NCBI GenBank assembly: GCA_021432605.1
Contig: MU271143.1
Coordinates: forward strand, 2,427,277-2,491,276
Reading direction: 5' to 3'
Source: Coniochaeta sp. PMI_546
Taxonomy: Eukaryota > Ascomycota > Sordariomycetes > Coniochaetales > Coniochaetaceae
DNA: 64,000 nucleotides
Part shown: positions 24,413 to 63,600 of the stretch, piece after piece
Position numbering within the stretch: position 1 is the stretch's first letter
Layout of the letters: the number at the start of each line of letters is the position of its first letter
Made by a program: the position numbers and the translations under genes
Notes under the pieces: generated by a model
What the model was told of the DNA's origin: nothing
The model's input: only the letters and a program-made list of their open reading frames with translations
Databases searched by the model: none

Positions 24413-26359
<1,947 letters not shown>

Positions 26360-28110: not shown

Positions 28111-30290
28111 TTAGACGCGGAACGGAAGACGTGTCTCGCCAGGGGCATGGTAGTCCGGCACCTTCATCTCGAGCGCCTCGCCAGAGTATCCAAGATCTTC
28201 AGCCACCAGCGTGGCCGCCTTCTCGCCGATCAGCAGCGCGGTCGAGTACCTAATTATTCCATCTCATTAGTATCATAGTAATCCTCCTTACGGTTCGCAA
28301 TGAAAAGGACTTACGTGTTGCATCCAACATTGTCGGGGCAGATACTCAGATCAGCCACCTTCAACCCCTTCACACCATGGACATTCAGACGCTCGTCCAG
28401 CACGCCATGCTTGACAATGCTATTGCCCTCCCTCGGCGCCATGGAACAAGTGCCCAAGCTGTGCCAAGTGCTCTCAACATGGCGTTTGACCCACTCCTCG
28501 ACCGCCTCGATATCCTGCTTGCTGTACTTGAGATCCTCTCTCAGATCCCTCTTATTCGAGCTCAGGATATTGGCCTCGGGCTTCCTATCCGGCTCGGGCA
28601 AATGGCTACTCCAGCTACCGTGCGTGATACCAGCACTCAAGTTGCCCGGCAATGCATACGCCTTGGTGGTCGCCAGATCCATATCATTCGCCCTCGCAGG
28701 CGAGTCGTACGCGAAGAAGGGGTGCATATTTTCCACCTCGCCGGCGTAGGCGTCCATCCGCCTCGCCGTCTCGCGGGACTTGATGTAGCCCCACACCATG
28801 GGCGCCATGTCGCGCTCGTCGTTCATGAAGCCGGTGTCGAAGTCGGGCGTCTCGTACGGGTTGGCCGACCTGATGTGCGTGCTGCCGCGCGAGAAGGGGT
28901 ACTCGAGGAAGTGGAACATGGAGAAGAACTTGCCGGGCGGGAGCAGCATGTGGTCGCCAAAGAAGCCGGCGATGACGCTGTAGTGCATCACGGGCTTGTC
29001 CGGCTTGTTCTTGAAGTAGGACTCCCAGCCGTCGTTGAAGTGCGGCGTCGGCCACTCCTTGAAGGCCTGCAGCTCTTCCTCGGTGGGCCGGATCTTGACG
29101 CCGGCCTCGATGCCGTTTGTGGCGAGGGGGCCGGTGCCCTTGAGAGCCCATTCGTCGAAGACCCCTTGGGTGCGGGATTGTTAGTAATCGGCTCTGTACT
29201 TGGAAAGGTAGCAGCTTAGTCTTACTCTTTTGCACGTCTGGATCACCCCGGACAAAGTCGTCGAACGACTCCGTGTCCGGTTTGGCGCGGTACACGGAGA
29301 AGGTCAGGTAATGGTCCTGGAAGTTGAGGCCAACACCCGGAAGGTCGACGATGGGCTTGACGCCAGCAGCCTCGAGCTTCTTGGGGTCGCCGATACCAGA
29401 GCGCTGGAGGATGAGGGGCGACGACAGGGTACCGCCCGAGACGACAATCTGCTTGCGAGCCTTGAAGGTCCTGGTGTGCAACTGGTTGGGATGGAGCGGC
29501 TTGGTGGGCACCGTCTGAACAGCTACGGCGCGGCCATCCTCGATGATGACCTTGTCTACCTTGGTGTTGCAGGCCAGGTACAGGTTGGAGTGGACCGCGC
29601 GGGTGGAGTGGATATAGGCATGGGCGCTGTCGCTCCTGCGTCCGGTGTCGCGGTTGATCCACTTGAGCCAGTGCTCTGCTCCGTGGCCTGTGACGAGATC
29701 CTCGAGGTCGTCGACGGTGGGGATGCCCTGCGACTCGGTGGCGCGGAGGAAGTCGTCCTTGATAGGGTAGGTGTAGTTGCCGAAGGAGACCTTGATGGGA
29801 CCCTCGAAACCATGAATGTCCTTGTTGTGGCAGGGCCGCTGGTAGGTCTCGTGCTTTCTCATGAGCGGGATGAGCTCCTTGGTCGTCCATCCCTTGGCTT
29901 GGAAGTCGTCATAGTCAGAGGCTGAAGCACGGGTGTACATCATGAAGTTGATGGATGAGCCCCCACCGAGGATGTGGGCGCAGGGCACGACTGCCTTTCT
30001 TCCGGCAAGCCACTTCGAAGGGCGCGACTCGTAGAAGGAGGCCGTCTTGGAGTCGAGTTTCATGTTCCGAGGGTAGATACCCGGCCGGTAGACCCAGGGG
30101 TTGTTGAGGTTGCTTTCGCCTGCTTCGATGAGGAGGACGGTGAGATTGTGGTCCAGGTTGGCCAGTCTAAAGAGTGTTAGTGACGTCGAGCACGAGACTT
30201 CAAGTGATCTATCTCCTACCGGCCAGCAACGACACAACCTGCGCTCCCGCCGCCGCACACGATAATATCGAACTCTTCAGGGAGACTCAT
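28111..30290 (-). CDS. aox1: Alcohol (methanol-type) oxidase, GMC flavoenzyme
   Basis: Minus-strand exons 30290-30220, 30166-29226, 29164-28315 and 28249-28111 give 666 residues, the normal length of yeast-type alcohol oxidase. The FAD-binding start is MSLPEEFDIIVCGGGSAGC, followed by AGESNLNNPWVYRPGIYPR and GGGSSINFMMYTRAS. The second GMC signature is GGTLSSPLILQRSGIGD, and the active-site His lies in WHSLGTCSM. The family oxidises short primary alcohols to aldehydes and releases hydrogen peroxide, normally in peroxisomes. The protein ends HAPGETRLPFRV, which is not a standard C-terminal peroxisome signal (yeast enzymes end -ARF), so targeting is uncertain. The three introns (51-65 nt) are GT-AG. 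The gene borders a gene-poor, partly decayed stretch. Confidence 0.93.
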
Positions 30291-32568
30291 CGTTACTACT
30301 ATCAACTGGACAGGGAAATATAGAACGAGATGCCTTTCTCAGCGATCCTGGCAGATTGTGGGAGCCGGAGTGAAGATGAGACGGCAGAGTCTTTGGTCAG
30401 AGGTAAACCTTATATGTTCGTATCCACGGGTCCGCCTGGAGTCTCTCAGTGGCCGTCAGGCAAGAGCTTGCGATGCTGTCAATGCTCACAGTCTTGGCCC
30501 CTCCCCTTTTCCCCTCACCACTGCGCATCCGCTACATCCCTCGAGCATTGATCTAGACTCCGATATTCCTCCCAGCGAATGACATCTGCAGAGTCAACCA
30601 CTGTCTTCGCCGTTGGCAGACGTCGCCAAGGTGTGAACCCCTCTTCGGGCTTAAGATGTCTGGAACGACAACGAGGGCACCAATGAGGCCTTCATCAGGA
30701 AGTCATCTGGTTGATTGTATGCTACGCTGTTGCTCGAGGGAGGCATATGATTGTCGATGAAGAATGCTGTGCCACTGTATGCACATCGACGGGATGGGAG
30801 GAGTTGGGGTCTTGACCGGACGGGAATCTCGGCAGTATCAGTCAAACTGTCTCTAGACTCGTCTCTCCTAGCTCCTAGGGACTGATGGATGGTATCCACC
30901 CGAAAGTAAGTGCCGGGTATATTCTCCGGACTTGAGCAGATCTCCTAGGCTACAAATATGGGCTCGTGTCGACATGCTGAGCAGAATAGTAACTATCACA
31001 ACGAACTGGCTCAACTTTCTTTCCGTGCCTTGGATTCTCTGCAGCAACGTCGAACTTAAGCTGAGATACGAGAAGGCATATGGAGTCGTCCAAGTAAGTG
31101 GAGGAGAATATGAACAGGTTCGCGTGTCGTTGGTTCGAGACTTTCCATATGCGGAGAAATAAGCTGCATATCGAAACGAAGTAGCATACTGCTGCCAAGG
31201 ACGGCAACCTCATCCCGACGAGACACATCTCAACGCCTAGCCATCCAATGTCAAGAACGCGGGGTAGATCCTATCACGACTAAGTAACCGAAACGGATAA
31301 CTAGACCTGCTGCAGAAGAGAGGCAGTTGAGAACAAACTTGGAGCCTATGAGCGCGAAACTACCGACCCCTCGATGTACGGCATGTACGGTATGCCAATA
31401 AGTAGCCCGCTGCAGTTGGTTAACTTGTCGTTGCAGTGGGGTGATGTCTGCGTCCGTGTCTGCAGTCTTCATCCCACGTACACGCCCCGTAGCTACCCCA
31501 TGTTTGAAAAGTGTCTAGCCTAGACGCCGTTATTGGGCGGACTGCATCATCGTGCATGGCCTCCCGCGCAGCAACCCCCCCAGTTACCCCAGGTTATTAT
31601 GGGGTCCTTACGGCGGGTTGCCCGCTAGTGGTGGCTTATGCAGTCTATATTTGCCGTCCCTACAGCACGATCACACTCCTACTGCTATGCTATATTCAAT
31701 GGCCTCCATTGGATCCGGAAACAGGCCGGTCTTGCGGATGGCGTGTAGGGGATCTCCTCATTTGCGGCATGAAAGTCCCCTCTTTCAGAGCCTCCTCATC
31801 CGAGCACTTCCTATAGGAAGGAGTATATGGTAGGCAGTGTTTGAATCCGACTAATGCAGGCTGACGAATGAGTACCCATGTGATTTGATCCCCCAAGTCT
31901 CCAAGCTGGATACTTATCCGCCATACGCGTACGCCGGACTTACTTGTTGTGTGTTCTTCAGCACGGCTTGAGTTAGAAGAATCCAAATATTGAACTCTTG
32001 GAACTATCTACTTCCTATATCCCCCGCACTTACAAGAGTCCTTCTCCCGAGATAGGCAAGTTTCCCCGTGAGTGGGTGGCTTGCAAGCTGCCGAATCATC
32101 CGAGGAGGCCATCGAGGCACACAAGATTGTGATTTGAAATCCAGTGAGGGAGTAGTGCTTTGCAGATTGTCTCTCAGAAGTCCGAAGCTATCAGGGACTC
32201 GATCATGACACTGGTAGTCTTGAAATCGTAGCTTGTACAGCATGAAGGAAGATTGAGTCCAAAATCTGTACCATATGTGCCGTTCTTGCTACCGTTCATA
32301 AAGAGATACACAGAATTGTTAACACCATACTCCAAGAGCCTGGAATTCCTGCAAAGCTTACTCTGCGCCCTTGGTCAGTCTGTCATCCCAGTGTCTGATA
32401 GACGATCCAAATCATCACTTAAGCTAACAAAGACTCAGGAACCTGAAATATCAATCACTCCGGCCGTGCTTCGTATCAATTTCCACGACAGTAGCTACCA
32501 GATCAGATGGAAGAAGAATAATATCGACCACAAGTCAGGAACATCAGACTGCCATTCTGTCAACTGAC
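30291..32568. other. Intergenic, no intact gene
   Basis: About 2.3 kb with only short, motif-free frames. The first 300 bp is the presumed promoter of the alcohol oxidase gene on the minus strand. Nothing else is recognised. Confidence 0.5.
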
Positions 32569-33290
32569 TCAGGCACGATGTGCAGTATATGAGAAAGCAT
32601 ATTGCCCTACATCCTCCCTGATCCACTTCATGACCTCGTCCACTTGGGCCAAGTTAACTTGGATCTCTTCCGATATCTTTTCCGAAGGCACCAGACACAA
32701 ACCCCCAAGCTCCAGGCATTTGATGTGCAAATAGCTCGATTTGGTCCGCTAACAATGCTCCATGTTCGTTGATTCCTCAATGGTGAGCGGAGGAACCTGG
32801 AGAGAACTCAGACACCAAAACTGACGGAGCACAGTTCTCTAATTACGTTTTTACAGCTCTCACAGAATATGAATGATATACGTCTAGTCCGGGAGAGAGA
32901 GAAAAGTAAGAAGGTCTAAGTCCAGGTGCCCTCTCACGATTCTGACCAAGTGACGCGTGGTATCCTTAACAAGACCCTTCGTCCGAGCATTCTTAGTGAT
33001 AGGTCGCCATCTATGCGGCAGAAGGTACTAAGCTTGGATGCTTGATCAATAAAGCGCCCGGGTGTTTCTGGATCACCTTGGCTAACGGCTCCAGGTTAGG
33101 TAGAAAACTCCTTAGACTCTACAGCTTCATAGCCTTGAAGGGTCGGTCTAGAGGGTAGGTCTAGACCAAATCCCTTCACCAGTCGACGTAAGGTGTGAGT
33201 GTTCTTGATTGCATGATTCTTTGCAGGGTAAGCGATGGTTGAACAAGGTCACGCTCTAAGGTGAGTAAGTCTACACTTACTAGACCTAAC
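32569..33290 (-). pseudogene. Decayed protein-coding gene, family not recognised
   Basis: Read on the minus strand, this stretch keeps long coding-like segments broken by stops and frame changes. The best segment, ending at a TGA at 32571-32569, contains LELGGLCLVPSEKISEEIQ and VDEVMKWIREDVGQYAF; another before it reads RTVLRQFWCLSSLQVPPLTI. Further upstream are THTLRRLVKGFGLDLPSRP and, in a different frame, LRSFLPNLEPLAKVIQKHPG. Amino-acid composition is that of a globular Leu-rich protein, possibly an F-box or leucine-rich-repeat type, but that is a guess. At least five in-frame stops and two frame changes separate the pieces. Several stops are TAG where Trp or Gln would fit, consistent with C-to-T decay such as repeat-induced point mutation. 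The 5' limit is approximate. Confidence 0.5.
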
Positions 33291-33557
33291 TATAGACTTT
33301 AAGCTGCCCCTAGTGTATCGGCCGGGACTTAGGGGAAGATCCACCTCGTTTTACTAGCTCGGTACTCCACACAAGTCATTCAAGGTTCTCCGGCCGGCCG
33401 GATTGGCCCCCACAAACTTCGTTACGCCGCTCCAACGTGCAAGATCACGTGACGGAAGAACTGCCAGAGATTTCAAGGCGGGGTTCTGACGTCTTTTTTT
33501 TCTTCTCGGCAAGAACGACGACAGCACCTACAGCAGCCAGAGTTGATCCTGCGCAAT

Positions 33558-36363
33558 ATGACTATCACCGTCATTCTTGGGGCCCAATGGGGTATGTTTC
33601 TCTCCCTTACTAGAATCTCCTCGATCAGCCGATATCGGTTCGAATATCATCATACTAACCAGGACTTCTACAGGCGACGAAGGCGTGAGTACTTAGGAGG
33701 AACCGAGCACAGCCGATGACACCCGGGCTAACGATACTGGGGTACTCAGAAGGGAAAGTTGGTTGATATACAGTGCCAGGAGGCGCAACTCTGTGCCCGC
33801 GCCGCGGTAAGCACAACGTAGGCAGAATCCGGTCGACCAACGGCTTCCACCGATCTCTAAAACATCCCCAGTCGACAAGTTTGCGCCGAATCACCTGCTA
33901 ATTAACGTTAAGGGTGGGTCTAACGCTGGGCATCTCGTGCGGTTGGTCAACCTTTCTATCGATCGATATATATACATACGTATTGTGTTGCTAATGGGTG
34001 CAAAGCGTAAACGGAGTTCAATACAGGTCAGAACCAGCACACGTCGAAGGACTGGGTGGTTGCTAACATAAGGAGCAGCTTTCACCTCTTGCCCTCTGGG
34101 CTGATCAACCCAAAATGGTTTGTCAAAGATAATGATCGTTCAAGCTCCCAATGGCGAGGCTGACAAGTACCATAGCATGAACTTCATCGGTTCGGGCGTA
34201 GTGTTCCACGTGTTAGTCTCCACATGATCCTCCACCCCTAACGCGACTACCACATTGGCATCTGCTTGATGTCTCGCCTGGCTCGCGCCCCTCAACTGAA
34301 CTTGCCAAGAAGTCTGACTCTGTCCTCTAGCCCAAGTTTCTTCAGTGAGCTCAACGAGCTCGAGGAAAAAGGCCTGAGCGCGGTGCACGACCGGATCCTT
34401 GTTTCTGACAGGGTCAACGTTCTCTTGGACATGCACATGGCAGTGGATGGTCTCGAGGAGAGGGAACTTGGAGGTTCGTCCCAGAGTCTCCGACATTATC
34501 GTTGACGAACAGCAGCTAACTTCTACCCAAGACGCAGCTATCGGAACAACAAGACGCGGTACGCTACCCCACTGACTCCATGCCGGATTATCCTTTTCTG
34601 CTTCTGTCACCCTCATTGCAAGCATGCCCGAAATCTCAATAGCGGGGGCAATCTCGGTCATCGTCGTGATAGCGACACTATTTTGGCAACGAGGTCTAAC
34701 GTCCGCCACAGGCATTGGTCCCTGCTATCAGACAAGCAGAGCGGTAAGAGAGACTCATGACAATGGAGCGGACTGCTCGCTAACTTTTCCCAGCGAACTG
34801 GCATCAAATTGACTGACGTCTTCCACCCCGACCTCTTCGAGCAGAAGGTGAGGCGCTTAGCCGATGGCTATCAAAAGCGCTTCGGAGAACTTTTCGAATA
34901 CGACATCAAAGCCGAGCTTGCTCGTTTCGACGAGTACAGGAAGACGCTGAAGAAGTACGTCGTGGACGGCGTGGCCTTCATGAGATCCGCACAGCAGAGC
35001 GACATGAAAATTGTGATCGAAGGCGCAAACGTAAGGTTCTCATCCTAAGACTAAACGAATAGCACTGACTCATTGGTGGAACGAGCACCGTGCTCGTGGT
35101 CTCACAGTCCTCTATTCCTAGTCCCGCACGGATTCCTAGCTCGGGGGATCGTCAAGTCTCCCGTGAAGGAAAGGGATTGTGGGACCCTGGCGCTTGTGCT
35201 TGTTCCCAATTGAACAGGCACTCATGCTAGATGTTGATTATGGCTCTTACCCTGTAAGTTTCCGTCAACTTGGTCTTTCAGTTTGCACTCGTACTCATGA
35301 TTAACTACAGTTCGTCACATCCTCAAGTACTACGCTTGCTGGTATTATTGGTGGACTCGCACTGAACCCGAAGAACATCACAGAGACGGTGGGAGTGGTC
35401 AAGGCTTGTATGTGGATTGCTCCAAGGCCGTGATTCACTGCTGACTAGCAATAGATACCACCCGTGTCGGGGCAGGCGCCTTCAAGACCGAAGATACCGA
35501 AGAGTGCGTCTCAATCACTATCTTGAAGGCACTCTGAAGCTGACTGATAACCTTAGGATTGGTACCAAGCTCCAGGAGATTGGACGAGAATGGGTAAGGC
35601 CACAAGCGCCCTGGAGGTTCGAGCTTCGTCCGCTAACAAGATTTAGGGAACGTCGACTGGCCGCAGACGCCGATGTGGATGGTGAGTTTTCATCATGGCT
35701 CTTAGCTGCTGACAAAGTTTCTGACCGTTCTCAGGCTCGGTACGCACAATTTCAAACCTTGGATAGTAGGGAGCACAACTGACAAGCACAAACAGACCTT
35801 GTTGTCGTCAAGTACAGTAACTCGATCAACTACTACACCAGCCTTAATCTCACGAAGGTAGACAATGCCTACGGCATGCTTGTGACACGCATAAAAACGC
35901 TCTAACACTCTGTAGCTCGACGTTTTGGATACTTTCGAAACAATCAAGATCGCCATCGCTTACAAGCTCGACGGAAAGGTCAGTGATGCCGACGAGATCA
36001 TGATAGATTATAGAGACGCTAACCGTTTGGACAGGAACTGGACTCTTACCCTGCGGATCTTGACATCCTGAACCGAGCTGAGGTGGTATACCACGAGATG
36101 CCAGGCTGGCAAACGCCGACCACCAACGCGAAGACCTACGACGATCTCCCCAAGGCGGCCCGCGATTACGTCGAGGTGAGCATATTTACCCGGGCTAGCA
36201 TAACAAACAGTGTCGCTGACAACTAGCAGTACATCGAGAATTTCATCGGAGTCAAGGTACGTCGGCGCGCATACTAACCCACACCGCAATTGCTAAAGGT
36301 GGTGAGCAGATCAAGTACATCGGCACTGGTCCCGACCGTGACGCCATGATCCAGCGCGCCTGA
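33558..36363 (+). CDS. Adenylosuccinate synthetase, split into 22 exons
   Basis: The frame closes over exons 33558-33591, 33674-33684, 33750-33806, 33913-33941, 34006-34026, 34079-34117, 34176-34211, 34331-34473, 34532-34558, 34712-34743, 34794-35030, 35218-35253, 35311-35407, 35455-35503, 35557-35593, 35647-35681, 35735-35739, 35796-35857, 35916-35978, 36035-36175, 36230-36256 and 36310-36363. The 423-residue product has the family's normal length and ends. Signature 1 (QWGDEGKGKLVD) is intact. Others are NFIGSGVVFHVPSFFSEL, IEGANALMLDVDYGSYPFVT and KYIGTGPDRDAMI. The enzyme makes adenylosuccinate from IMP, aspartate and GTP in AMP synthesis. All 21 introns are GT-AG, 47-187 nt. Two sites differ from the family: GGSNAGHLVRVNG (usually GGHNAGHTIV) at 35-47, and GIGPCYQTSRARTG at 133-146, where Ser141 replaces the expected lysine. 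It could be a diverged second copy or the sole enzyme. Confidence 0.88.
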
Positions 36364-36901
36364 TTGCGCGAGATAGAGGAGGCATCCAAGGCTTGACTTG
36401 GATCGTGCACAAGGAGTGTTGGCTACCGAAGCCATTCGGTGACCCGAAGACGAATACTGCGCATTTTGGAAATTAGACTTGTATTTCTCACAGATAGGGA
36501 CATACCTTAGACTAAAACGGACAGTACTTGGATTCTGCCTCCTTCCGTACACGAGCCGTGGGTTGTGATGCATTTTGTGTGCGATCATCACTTCATCACC
36601 GTCTCATCGCAGGCTGGAATTGCTCGCGTACAGAGATGTACTCCGCCTGGAGACACCAGGTGGATATCTTCTTGGTCTCGGAACTCCTCGCACAGAGCAG
36701 TCCATGCCGCGAAGAAGGACTCCTCCGTTGAAGCCCAAACAACCCTGTCGCACATCAGCACGAGGCCCTCAGGTGGTGACCCTCTGCGTGAAAAAGTCTT
36801 AGGGTCCCAATGTATTTGACCCCCTTGCCAACTTTTTTGACCCCCCGGTCATCCTTCTGTCGCTGAATCATACTATAATCTTCAATGTTGACTGGATTGC
36901 T

Positions 36902-36911
36902 AGGTAAGGTA
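36902..36911 (-). repeat. TACCTTACCT decamer, copy 2
   Basis: Reads AGGTAAGGTA on the plus strand, about 235 bp upstream of the RFA2 start codon. Confidence 0.6.
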
Positions 36912-37031
36912 CTGTACCTTATCGGCCAATGTTAGAGGTACGTACCAGTATTGGCCGAAGTGGGGGGTCTGCGGGTGGCACCACCATTGGACGTGTACTC
37001 GATGCTAAGTCAGCACAAATTAAAGTGCTCA

Positions 37032-37057
37032 ACGCGTCTTCCGAATCCAGCACGCGT
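37032..37057. promoter_or_regulatory. Twin ACGCGT (MCB-type) boxes before RFA2
   Basis: ACGCGT occurs at 37032-37037 and 37052-37057, 20 bp apart and about 90-110 bp upstream of the RFA2 start. This hexamer is the MluI cell-cycle box bound by the MBF complex (Mbp1/Res with Swi6) at replication genes in yeasts. Its presence before a replication gene suggests G1/S-regulated transcription. Confidence 0.7.
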
Positions 37058-37143
37058 CTTCACCCCGCCTCACCAAAAGTAAACTTTCGAGAGGAGGCGA
37101 AGCTTGCATCACAGCATTTCACAAAACCACACCACACCGAATC

Positions 37144-38195
37144 ATGTGTAAGTTGTCCTTACTGTAGACCATATTCATATCTCACGAAGCGCAAATAACA
37201 ATGAGCTAATATATCTGCCATTGCTTGGAATCAGCGTACGGTGGCGGCTACTCAAAAACAGGCTACGGCGCCCAAGGCGGCGATGATGGCGGCGGCTTCA
37301 TGGCCGGCTCACAGCAAGGCAGTCAAGGAGGAGGAGGAGGAGGCTCAAAGGTACGACCCTCATTTCCCTCCCTTCATCACCTCCCACCAGAAGTCAGTCA
37401 ACAAATCCTAACCCTCGTTTGCCGCAACCCCCTTAGTCCTACGGCGACGAATCCCTCCGCCCCGTGACGATAAAACAGCTCGCCGACTGGTCGGAACCCT
37501 TCGCCGGCGCAGCAGAGGTGCAGATCGACGGCGCGCCCCTCACGCAGCTGACGCTGGTCGGCCAGATCCGCAAGATCAACCCGCAGGCGACAAACATCAC
37601 CTACACCCTCGACGACGGCACAGCGACCATCGACGTGAAGAAGTGGGTCGACGCCGAGCGCGCCGACGACGCCGACGCCGTCCAGTTCGCCGAGGACCAG
37701 TACGTGCGCGTGTGGGGCAGGCTCAAGAGCTTCAACGGCAAGAAGCACGTGGGCGCCCACTTCATCCGGGCCATCGAGGACTACAACGAGGTCAACTACC
37801 ACATGGTGGAGGCGGCCTATGTGCACCTGTACATCACCAAGGGACCGCCTGTGCCGGGCCAGCAAGCCGCGGAGGGAGGCCAGCAGAACAAGCACGCGGG
37901 CGGGAATGGGGAGAGCATGTTTGTCGATGATGGGTATGGTGGTGGTGGTGGAGGGGGCGGCGACGGGGGGGAGACGCAGCAGCAGAAACTGGCTAGGGCA
38001 TCGCCGCTCGCGAAGAAGGTGTTTGCGTATATTAACAACACACCTGGCGGGAACGAGGGAGTGTCCGTCCACATGATCGCGACCGGGACTGGATTGTCGA
38101 CGCGCGAGGCCTTCGCTGCTGCCGATGAGCTCAATCAGTTGGGCTTGGTGTACACTACTGTCGATGACGAGACTTATGCTATTCTTGAGTATTGA
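37144..38195 (+). CDS. rfa2: Replication protein A 32-kDa subunit
   Basis: Exons 37144-37147, 37235-37350 and 37437-38195 give 292 residues. The first exon is only four bases (ATGT), so the start codon and one base of Ser2 are separated from the rest by an 87-nt intron. The N-terminal 40 residues are Gly/Ser-rich (SYGGGYSKTGYGAQGG), matching the phosphorylated tail of RPA32. An OB fold follows (PVTIKQLADWSEPFAG, LTLVGQIRKINPQATNITY, YVRVWGRLKSFNGKKHVGAH), then a glycine-rich linker and a C-terminal winged helix (LAKKVFAYINNTPGGNEGVS to DETYAILEY). As part of the RPA trimer it binds single-stranded DNA in replication and repair. The promoter has paired MCB-type boxes. Confidence 0.95.
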
Positions 38196-38668
38196 GCTGG
38201 GCACCGTACTCGAGGGGGGGCAAGGATGAAGGGAAGGGTACAACTGTCTAAATACTTGGCGTTGGGGTTATGGGTTGTCCAAAGGTAGCATTTTGGTGCC
38301 GTATGTCGGAATGACGTATAATGACAGTCTTGTGCTTCTCCTTGCTGTGTCCCGCGGGGGAACTTAACATGAGAGAGATGCTGACGCAATCTATGTAAAG
38401 CTGCCTACATGGGCTGTTAGGGGGCGAATTATACCTTTAGAAAGACCGTAAGAAGCAGACCGGAACTCAATGTCTTGTGCCAGTAGTCCCAGCATGTTGA
38501 ATGCCGCAACGAAGGGAAAAAAATATCCCAGTTTACGGGATGGTTGAGTTGAGCACCATCCGATCCCCACACGCCGACCAATCTCTCCTCCCCCAGTGTT
38601 TCCTCTCACACGAACTTACCGCCGCTCGCACAAGCCACAAGTACGAGACAGGCGAGGCAGACAGAAAC
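38196..38668. other. Convergent 3' ends of RFA2 and the GNAT gene
   Basis: 473 bp between opposing stop codons; presumed untranslated and termination sequence only. Confidence 0.55.
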
Positions 38669-39687
38669 CTAACCCATCTTCCTGCCGCCCAGCTGAAACA
38701 TCTTGATCGGAGCGCTTGCAGTGCTGGAGTAAGCAACCTTGCGGGGCGGCTGGGGGTCACGAACCATGATGGACAGACGGACCGGGGCGAGCCCGCGGGT
38801 CAGGGATATGTCCCTCTTGACGTCGAAGCCGAACTTGCGGTAGTATCTGTTGTTGGCCTCCGTTGTCGACTCCAGGTAGACCGGTTGGCTCTCCGCGTCG
38901 GCCTGTTGACGTTAGTCATGGTGTCAGGATTGGAGACCGATAGGATCAAGTTGATAGAGGGAAACGAACCCGCTGGACCATGAACTCTAGCAATTTCTTG
39001 GCGTACCCCTTGCCGCGGGCACCGGGCTTCGTGCCGAGGTACAGGAGATACCAGGCCTCGTCGTCGCGATCACCCAGCACAGAGATCTTGGTGTCATGAA
39101 GCACGTTCACCAGGTCGTCGTACCGCTTGTTGCCCTCGGGGGACAGCTGGAACTTGAGGCGCCAGAGACCGCTGCGGAAGCTGGTCCACCAGCCGTCTAG
39201 ATTCTTCCGAGGTGGTAGCCTGTTGACGGACTCACGAGGAGTCTTCATTTTAGTAAAAGGATGTTGTTATCTCTTTTTCCTCATTGGTGGCGAATGAGTG
39301 TTGGGACAGGATACGGAAGCGGACACGGACATGGGGAACTCACCAGAGCGCAACGCCTTCGTAGTCCGGTCCGATGGCGGTGGCGATGCCATTGTAGCAG
39401 GTGGCAGCAACCATGTAAGTGAAGATGTCCACGTGGATCTTCCACTTGTCCTCAGCCGATACGTCGGTCATGTCATCCGAATTGACAAGGTACTGCGCCA
39501 GGTCGTCGTCTGCAAAGGCATGGGCCAGCGAGAGGCCGGCAGCCTTGCACTCCGAAAGTTCCAGGACGCGAACGCTGTCCTCCCAACGTGGCGGGACGAG
39601 CGAGCGCTTCAACTCGACGAGAGTAATGGAACTACTGCCCACGGCCTCCATGCTGGGCAACTCCTCGGTTGGAACGCAGCTAGACAA
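38669..39687 (-). CDS. GNAT-family N-acetyltransferase (5' end unresolved)
   Basis: Supported minus-strand exons are 39687-39344, 39219-38970 and 38902-38669, encoding 275 residues. The coding sequence at 39687 opens with LSSCVPTEELPSMEAVGSSS directly after an acceptor-like CTAAC...CAG, so a short upstream exon with the ATG is expected; a weak candidate ATG lies near 39866, but its donor is poor. The acetyl-CoA-binding motif is YLGTKPGARGKGYAKKLLEF, followed by YLESTTEANNRYYRKFGFDV, the end of a GNAT fold. The N-terminal half (ELSECKAAGLSLAHAFADDD) is typical of a fungal GNAT group with unknown substrates. It is probably cytosolic, since no signal peptide is visible in the supported part. Function beyond acetyl transfer is unknown. 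Confidence 0.82.
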
Positions 39688-60639: not shown

Positions 60640-63600
60640 ATGGAGGTGCTCTTCGATGCCCCGTCGAGCAGTCATGGCTGCGCCTCGGTCCCCGACCTGC
60701 AGAGACAACTCCGCCAGCTCCTCGACTCCAAGGTCACTCCGACCAAAGCCGAGCATCTCTCAGTCACTTTCGAGCTACGTTCCAACGTCACATTCGCCAT
60801 CCCCGTCACAGAGGCCGAAAATGCGTCGCTGGAAGCTGGCGCAGGCGTCGATCCGCGACTTGTTGGGGGAGCGCGAACGGGCAGTACAGTCACAGGCATC
60901 GATGGACAGCTTATACGGCACATCAACACCTTCGACACCGTTATAAGCCAGTCTCAGGATGATCCAGTCGTCCAGCGCATAGTCTCCAAGCACATCATGG
61001 CCGCCGTTGGGGAAACAGACCAGGCGCATTGGATCATGCGTTCCATGACACGCGGAACACAAGGTTGGACCTTTGTCTACGGTTGCAAAGACTCCGCGCA
61101 GAGTTGGGCGAGGCAGAACGCCAAGAACCCTGCCAAAACTGTGGTCGGCGAATGGAGCAACAAGGACGGCCAAGATCCCGTCAATCTTAGTGGGTGCACC
61201 ACGGCAAACGTCCCCTCTTGTGGTGGGAGCTAACTCCTTCTTTAGGTCGCCCGGCGTTCGACTGCCGAGGAACACTCACGATTGCCTTCTCCAAGGCTGA
61301 GAAGTCCATAAGCGTGAAATATGAGCACACGAACATGCACAAGACGGTCGGGGAGCTCTTAGACTTTCTTGCTCCCCCGCCTGTACGACCACAGCCCATA
61401 GTCGTGGAAGGGCGCAAATCCATATCATCAAAGAAAACCCCAAAGAAACGTCAGGCTGCTGAGGGTGCCGAGAGTTCTGTCGAGACACCTGGCGAGGAAG
61501 GCGTCACCCCGCGTCCGAAAAGGCAGAAGAAGCCGACCCAAAATGGGGCACCCTCCACACAGAAGAAGCGATCTCGAAAAAGGAAGACTGACGACGACGC
61601 TCATATCGACCCAGCTTTGGATATGCTCCCCCCAGAGCTGCCTGGAGCTCGGCCATTGGAAAATTCGGTTGAACGTCCGCTCTATAATACTCAAGCGCAA
61701 CAGGGCGGCACGGCCAACGGAAGTACATATCCAGCCGGCCTTGTAAGCGGCGAGCGTTTCAATGGTAGCGAGGCTCAAGCTTCGGCCATGGTAGCTGGTG
61801 GAGTTCACGCGCACTCCATTCTCAACCTCCCAGCTGGAGAAGCTGAGCGGCGACGCGAAGCAGCAATTCGACTCCTCTCAGAGTCCAACGTCGACCCTCA
61901 GAGTCTGACTCCCGAGCAGTTCAGTATATTTGCCAACCAGTCGCCAGCTCTGCAGAAGGAGTCGCTCTCGATGCTTATGCAATACGGTGCTGAGCGTCTA
62001 AGAATAGTACTCCCGGACAAGGACCAGAATACGTCACAGAACCCGACTCCTCCCAGTCAGGATCAAGACGCAGAACAAAATCCTCCAGTTGATACACAGC
62101 AGTCAGCGGATGGGGCGGATGCCCCCAAGAGAAGGCGGCGGGCGAGTTGGAAGAAGGTCGGAGCTAATGACACGAACGCGGCTGATAACGTGGCTACCTT
62201 GACACAGACGGACTCTGCTACACCGCAGACGAAGCCTAGAGCCCCGAAGCTCAGTCGTGGATCGTGCACTCCCTGCCGTAGTCACAAGGTTAAGGTGTGT
62301 TAACGCATCTCCGGGACATGATAATGATATGCTAACTCAAACTAGTGCGGGAAGGAGAAGCCGTCATGCAAGCAGTGTCTAGAATTGGGCACGGTGTGTT
62401 CCTACCCTCTAGAGCAATCGAGAAAGAGCAAGGCGTTCGAGCAAAAGGCAGGGGACTCTGTGGGTGCGGGGGGGACCGAGCAACCCGTGGACATTCCCGA
62501 AGTGGTGCTCAACGAGGTTGTCGAGCCTGACGACTTGCCATCTCCAGGATTCTCATACGAAGATCCAGGTGCTCCTCCGCATCAGGATTCAGTGGACCGC
62601 GAGTCTGAGGTCGAGGCTGAAACGGAGGCTGGGCCGATACAGGACAACCCACAGTCAACATACACAGAGCCTAGCAATGGCGTCTACCGTCATGCGTCAG
62701 GTCTCACGTTTCCAGATTCGGTCTCGCCAGAAGTTACACAGCAAATGTGGACAATAGGTGCCAGGACGGATTACGATCAGGGATCCGCGCATGGTTCCAC
62801 CAATAATGGTCTTAGCCTCCCACAACAGACCCAGGAGCGTTCTAGCACGCTCTCACTTGCCGATGAAAGAGGTACAGGGAGTGCTACTACATCTCGTGTC
62901 GGTACGCATCAGCCTCAGAAATCGTGGGGCAGTTACACTGCCTCGCAAGGGTCTGGGATTGTCGATGTTCCGACATCCACGAGCTCTATCCATGCCGACG
63001 TTGGTAGCGCCGCATCCTGGCCTGCCTATTCGAACCCAGAGGCAGCGAGTCCTAAGCATGCGTCTGCCTCGCCCACGCAGCCAAGGAGGAAGGCGAAGCC
63101 AACCAACACTTCTTCTCTCAACTCGCCGAATAATCCTGGTGGAATGCATCAAGCTGCTGCCTTGGCTCAAGCTGCCATGAACTCTGCTGCTGCGAGGACA
63201 GCATCGCCTGTGCAAAACAACCAGTACGAGGCTGCAGCTCCAACTGTGCGGGCGAAGTCACGACAGGGCACGAAGCCCCTGACACGGACTCCTGTGCCTA
63301 GCCATCCCAGCAGGCAGCCTCAGGGTTCGGCTCCTGCGGCAGCTACCCACACCAACTACTCGACAGCGTCTGACAAGACTACCGGTCCGAATTACAACGA
63401 CACCTATTCTCGATACTCGACAAATGCTGATCAGTCGGGCAATGGTGTGGCCTACCAGTCATACTCTCAGCAGAATACCGCGACCGCGAGAGCATCCTCC
63501 TACTCCAACTTCGACTCGTATGGCACCCGAACTCACAATACTAACAATACCTTGCCTCTCGAGAACTCAGCTGCGCAGCAAGCAGCCTCGTCCTTCACGT

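Follow-up and report, generated by a model that had tools for sequence, protein, structure and literature searches.

The adenylosuccinate synthetase (AdSS) gene at 33558-36363 (+) raises two linked questions: whether 21 introns truly interrupt a single housekeeping gene among intron-poor neighbours and, if so, where those introns came from. The gene lies within a 64-kb window, i.e., the whole stretch of DNA that was analyzed. It was comprised of 22 exons and 21 introns and encoded a protein of 423 aa (Table 1). All 21 introns were GT-AG, ranged from 47 to 187 nt (median 57 nt) and fell in phases 0, 1, and 2 in the proportion 10/5/6. Coding length including the stop codon was 1272 nt, and the introns summed to 1534 nt. 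A sequence-only reading of this DNA had proposed this model, and its coordinates, exon and intron numbers, GT-AG boundaries, intron lengths, protein length, and phase counts were all reproduced.

Table 1. Exons of the AdSS gene and its longest intron, with positions in the window.
Feature	Position	Strand	Length (nt)	Basis and remarks
Exon 1	33558..33591	+	34	Gene model and spliced alignment
Exon 2	33674..33684	+	11	Microexon within the WGDEGK motif; spliced alignment
Exon 3	33750..33806	+		Gene model and spliced alignment
Exon 4	33913..33941	+		GGSNAGH motif; 3' end shifted by Cryptococcus and wheat guides
Exon 5	34006..34026	+	21	Found with bacterial and mouse guides; missed with Cryptococcus and wheat
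Exon 6	34079..34117	+		5' end shifted by Cryptococcus and wheat guides
Exon 7	34176..34211	+		Gene model and spliced alignment
Exon 8	34331..34473	+		3' end shifted by mouse guide
Exon 9	34532..34558	+		5' end shifted by mouse guide
Exon 10	34712..34743	+		Gene model and spliced alignment
Exon 11	34794..35030	+	237	Longest exon; spliced alignment
Intron 11	35031..35217	+	187	Longest intron; no CTRAY near the 3' end
Exon 12	35218..35253	+		Gene model and spliced alignment
Exon 13	35311..35407	+		Gene model and spliced alignment
Exon 14	35455..35503	+		Gene model and spliced alignment
Exon 15	35557..35593	+		Gene model and spliced alignment
Exon 16	35647..35681	+		Gene model and spliced alignment
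Exon 17	35735..35739	+	5	Microexon GCTCG within the RRCGWLD motif; spliced alignment
Exon 18	35796..35857	+		Gene model and spliced alignment
Exon 19	35916..35978	+		Gene model and spliced alignment
Exon 20	36035..36175	+		Gene model and spliced alignment
Exon 21	36230..36256	+		Gene model and spliced alignment
Exon 22	36310..36363	+		Ends in the stop codon; spliced alignment

Splicing was evaluated with a protein-to-genome aligner that used BLOSUM62, a bare GT/AG rule, and an intron minimum of ~40 nt, without a trained splice model. Four guide proteins were used: an intronless bacterial AdSS (L001) and the AdSS proteins of mouse, Cryptococcus, and wheat. The bacterial guide recovered 21 of 21 introns base for base. 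The mouse guide recovered 20 of 21, missing intron 8, while Cryptococcus and wheat each recovered 19 of 21, with introns 4 and 5 fused into one. Using the bacterial guide, the AdSS locus scored 894, compared with 46 for the reverse strand, 41 for the best of 20 mononucleotide-shuffled regions, and 44 for the best of 20 shuffled proteins; no second AdSS-like place in the 64-kb window scored above 150 with this guide. The intron count remained at 21 for intron penalties of 6 to 18 and was 20 or 19 at penalties of 22 to 30. In-frame stops occurred in 15 of the 21 introns and the other six were not multiples of three; thus, none of them could stay in the transcript by itself without disrupting the coding sequence. 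Residues flanking the junctions aligned without gaps to Cryptococcus at 20 of 21 introns, and those at intron 4 aligned without gaps to human AdSS.

An ab initio gene finder gave a partial AdSS model of 14 exons at a stricter intron penalty. At a looser setting it gave 22 exons, with a protein of 402 aa and several different boundaries. This finder was not independent evidence because its splice matrices had been seeded with these AdSS introns. The stricter, partial model is the one result that favors misread introns, faulty assembly, or a pseudogene in decay, and it counts little. Such an explanation is scarcely credible against a full-length spliced protein without an internal stop and an alignment score of 894 vs. 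41-46 in the controls. The AdSS gene looks real and intact.

The predicted protein matched PF00709 over its full length (563 bits against a cut-off of 27; profile positions 1-416 of 416). It matched 22 distinct PDB sequences below 1e-20, the best being 5i33 (532 bits). We take 5i33/5i34 to be Cryptococcus AdSS and the next four PDB labels to be mouse, human, wheat, and Arabidopsis. Identity to the Cryptococcus protein was 56.7%. Eight residues were invariant among the window AdSS, Cryptococcus, human, and L001 proteins: D13, N38, G40, H41, T129, T130, R144, and R303, which are presumably catalytic or substrate-binding. The window protein differed at 28 of the 152 columns that were invariant in five references, and these substitutions included T42 to L (in NAGHT), K141 to S, and P277 to K (FPTE to FKTE); lysine 141 is presumably an active-site lysine in the Escherichia coli enzyme. 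The protein is probably a working enzyme. It would join IMP and aspartate with the use of GTP, forming adenylosuccinate and so beginning the conversion of IMP to AMP.

Nineteen other genes were predicted in the window by the ab initio finder, with 0-4 introns each, in agreement with the sequence-only reading, which had counted 19 neighbours with 0-4 introns. The 16 of these 19 genes with a finder score >20 served for comparison and contained 32 introns per 23,868 coding nt (1.34/kb). Intron density in AdSS was 16.5/kb, about twelve-fold higher. At the density of its neighbours 1.7 introns would be expected in AdSS (Poisson probability of at least 21, 3e-16). In its architecture, AdSS is a true outlier. 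Pfam matches among the neighbours were: NADH dehydrogenase, Nop53, Ras-family GTPase, lactonase-fold, GMC oxidoreductase, replication protein A subunit, GNAT, NUDIX, exonuclease, MYST acetyltransferase, Zn2Cys6 regulator, MFS transporter, ferrochelatase, and Ku protein. Finer product names for these matches are our presumption, and the named neighbours were mostly housekeeping genes. A full-length match to Syo1 (802 bits) was also found; the matching PDB protein is presumably from Chaetomium thermophilum. Together with the style of the introns, this match suggests that the DNA comes from a filamentous ascomycete, perhaps a sordariomycete. The GMC oxidoreductase at 28111-30290 (-) was highly similar to alcohol oxidase 1 (PDB 5hsa, 1104 bits). 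A hidden second intron-rich gene was sought in the unannotated stretches, where 125 open frames of at least 75 aa were listed; the 105 that were scanned gave no Pfam match, and genes with shorter exons throughout would escape such a scan. Two of the 20 frames left out of that scan were searched separately: 24839-26356 had a kinase match and 61191-62300 had none.

The AdSS introns carried the same signals as those of the neighbouring genes. A CTRAY branch site was present in 19 of 21 AdSS introns, compared with 28 of 32 neighbour introns, and lay 13-22 nt from the 3' end in 18 of the 19 AdSS introns carrying one. Donor match to RAGT averaged 2.76 in AdSS and 2.91 in the neighbours, out of 4 (p = 0.48). 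With GT-AG ends throughout and CTRAY near the 3' end in most, these are U2-type introns. Their lengths ran slightly below those in the neighbouring genes (Mann-Whitney p = 0.03), a difference that was counted against the best explanation. Along the coding sequence, no departure of the intron positions from an even spread was detected (KS p = 0.64). In intron 11, the last CTRAY match was 153 nt from the 3' end; this intron may have an unusual branch point or be spliced in two steps. Inspection of the longer AdSS introns by eye gave no convincing case of nested introns.

Six of the 22 exons were 30 nt or shorter. Skipping exon 2 would shift the frame to a stop at codon 17, and skipping exon 17 would do so at codon 307. 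To produce the protein, 21 ordinary U2-type introns would each have to be spliced out, most likely by intron definition. Since most of the introns are short and each of these contains a donor, a branch site, and an acceptor, the 5-nt and 11-nt exons could be joined without exon recognition. We infer that the transcript is spliced correctly in the cell.

As the sequence-only reading had suggested, the introns were aligned with one another, and similarity among introns stayed at the level of shuffled sequences. Pairs of AdSS introns reached a best local score of 10, and 40 shuffled sets gave 10-14. When AdSS introns were compared with neighbour introns, the best score was 14 (shuffled mean 12.9, maximum 19, 15 sets), and against the rest of the window a single match of 14 nt was found at an E of 0.01. 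Near-identical introns in many places, as in an introner-like family, were not found in the 64-kb window. No direct repeats of at least 20 nt were found within 30000-39000, which held one short palindrome. The search for repeats or a transposon around AdSS also showed three unrelated tandem arrays in the window, and this idea was rejected. The doubt that the sequence-only reading had expressed about a single introner therefore holds. A recent multiplication of a single introner-like element has the high local intron density in its favor and nothing else; given the shuffled-level similarity of the introns, to each other and to neighbour introns, and the lack of direct repeats of this size, it is very improbable.

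The search for related genes covered viral contigs and bacterial genomes, and no intron-bearing AdSS of another species was found among them. The bacterial genomes yielded one AdSS, which was intronless (L001). The viral contigs gave no AdSS match to a single-protein query and 37 loci to an alignment query. Thirteen of these loci were translated and all were open frames. The remaining 24 were judged by the match table; several were partial, including one (L038) that covered residues 1-38 at a contig end. Many viral contigs (L002-L034; the longest 508 kb) encode AdSS; for six of these proteins, identity to the fungal one was 40-42%. The bacterial AdSS (L001:3001-4251), from a Gracilibacteria metagenome-assembled genome, shared 50% identity with the fungal protein, and in the tree it fell in the branch with the eukaryotic AdSS proteins; an exchange from eukaryote to bacterium or a shared bacterial source is possible for it. 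Among the titles and opening abstract lines listed in a literature search, none concerned an intron-rich fungal AdSS. The main text of a paper on MoADE12 did not contain "intron" or "exon" (PMC9330342), and a paper on stwintrons did not contain "adenylosuccinate" or "ade12" (PMC9024468).

Composition and phylogeny were consistent with fungal, native descent. GC3 of AdSS was 0.660 (neighbour range 0.628-0.819) and codon fit was 0.077 (neighbour range 0.017-0.230); both lay inside the neighbour ranges, towards the low end. On a tree of 20 proteins the window AdSS was sister to Cryptococcus, the one other fungus included, with support of 99/98. Its end branch was 0.64, about 2.5 times that of Cryptococcus (0.26). 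Relative-rate tests counted 60-67 private changes in AdSS and 30-36 in Cryptococcus (p 0.0021-0.0029), using four outgroups that are mutually non-independent. As a lead only, on which no conclusion rests, two presumed AdSS sequences were added to the tree. The window AdSS then joined the presumed Aspergillus protein with support of 99/97; the end branches were 0.45 and 0.55 and Cryptococcus was nearer by path. Identity to this presumed Aspergillus protein was 56.7%, the same as to Cryptococcus. If the presumed Aspergillus sequence is correct, rapid evolution would characterize this protein in filamentous ascomycetes, and the gene would have been inherited vertically. The protein is fungal, and its descent within this lineage appears native.

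These results bear on horizontal transfer from an intron-rich basidiomycete, which the sequence-only reading had offered as one of three origins. The equal identities to Cryptococcus and the presumed Aspergillus protein speak for a transfer; the tentative pairing with the presumed Aspergillus protein and not Cryptococcus speaks against it. Cryptococcus was the best PDB match, but its rank says little because it was the sole other fungus recognized among the matches. Basidiomycetes are intron-richer (PMC8476143, in part) and a transferred alpha-amylase gene holds 8-22 introns among them (PMC3584928, in part), yet 16.5/kb is far above the 3.28/kb given for Agaricomycotina in the consulted part of PMC8476143 (P 4e-9). 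Codon use, GC3, and splice signals were all within those of the neighbours. Transfer is thus unsupported and, with Cryptococcus as the one other fungal AdSS compared, improbable. Dissimilar introns, neighbour-like splice signals, and native codon use leave neither a foreign gene nor a single introner burst supported.

Ordinary inheritance, in which the only AdSS of related fungi would have the same introns, kept since an intron-rich ancestor, draws on the tentative grouping with the presumed Aspergillus protein. The excess of phase 0 and the even spread of introns also fit an old set; gains fit these features too. The fungal ancestor was indeed intron-rich, with a reconstructed density of 7.6/kb, and this reading still needs an exceptional gene, as the densities are 0.98/kb for the ancestor of Pezizomycotina and an average of 0.47/kb for its living species (PMC8476143, in part). 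At 7.6/kb 9.7 introns would be expected in AdSS, against the 21 observed (Poisson P ~0.001, which gene-to-gene variance in intron density makes a guide only). AdSS density exceeds the ancestral mean; provided that this mean holds for AdSS, retention by itself is an unlikely explanation, and ordinary inheritance is possible but not favored. The three origins offered by the sequence-only reading were supported in part: an ancient intron-rich copy is unlikely to suffice by itself and the transfer found no support. The simplest reading adds gained introns to an inherited set. We place a probability of roughly 0.6 on a working AdSS of fungal descent, native to this genome, whose introns are old inherited ones together with others gained singly and not copies of one element. 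We infer this mixture, in which inherited introns would stand beside others that the lineage acquired individually. More tentative is a lineage-specific burst, in which a housekeeping gene of an intron-poor fungus would have gained many unrelated introns singly, to about twice the ancestral density, with microexons and no introner family. Because the protein evolves fast, a second or altered AdSS copy is possible, and this speed, like the replaced lysine 141, counts against the favored reading. Such a divergent paralogue, with altered function (e.g., inhibitor-tolerant), would leave an intron-poor housekeeping copy elsewhere. The long end branch (0.64 vs. 0.26 in Cryptococcus) and the changes at invariant sites 42, 141, and 277 point this way, and AdSS homologues occur within Hypoxylon biosynthetic clusters (PMC12616698, in part). 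The window proteins scanned, however, included no polyketide or peptide synthase family, the families detected in the window included no core synthase that would mark a biosynthetic-cluster resistance copy, and the named neighbours were mostly housekeeping, which makes a paralogue rather doubtful.

Little is known of how introns originate apart from introner bursts. With its roughly twelve-fold difference in density from its neighbours, AdSS is a place to date gain by comparing relatives; interest would rise sharply if the introns prove lineage-private. The gene also probes the lower limit of exon size in ordinary fungal splicing. Automatic annotation can miss or fragment such a gene, and the fungus may then seem to lack a step of the purine pathway.

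Among known systems, the fungal-type AdSS of PF00709 (5i33/5i34) shares with the window protein the full-length domain, 57% identity, and a sister position in the tree. The window AdSS differs in its faster evolution, its 28 of 152 changed invariant positions, and its 22-exon gene. Very small exons are already known, with a 1-nt exon in Arabidopsis (PMC4674806, in part), a 1-nt exon in Fusarium CYP621A (PMC12940212, in part), and a 20-nt exon in Trichoderma Xlr2 (PMC11121469, in part), so the microexon size in AdSS is notable and not a record. As described in the portions consulted, the Fusarium and Trichoderma genes resemble AdSS in having tiny, frame-essential exons within conserved motifs; AdSS differs in combining predicted exons of 5 and 11 nt in one gene of primary metabolism. 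Introner-like elements can give rise to many new introns in ascomycetes (PMC4457414, in part); near-identical copies are expected of them, and none were found for the AdSS introns within the window. In intron content, AdSS resembles an alpha-amylase gene that was transferred into Agaricomycotina and has 8-22 introns per gene: a single gene far above the genome intron average, with short introns and a donor that was not found (PMC3584928, in part). That gene is a bacterial one in intron-rich basidiomycetes, whereas AdSS is a eukaryotic-type housekeeping gene with intron-poor neighbours and no sign of transfer. The alpha-amylase is a precedent for a single gene filling with introns.
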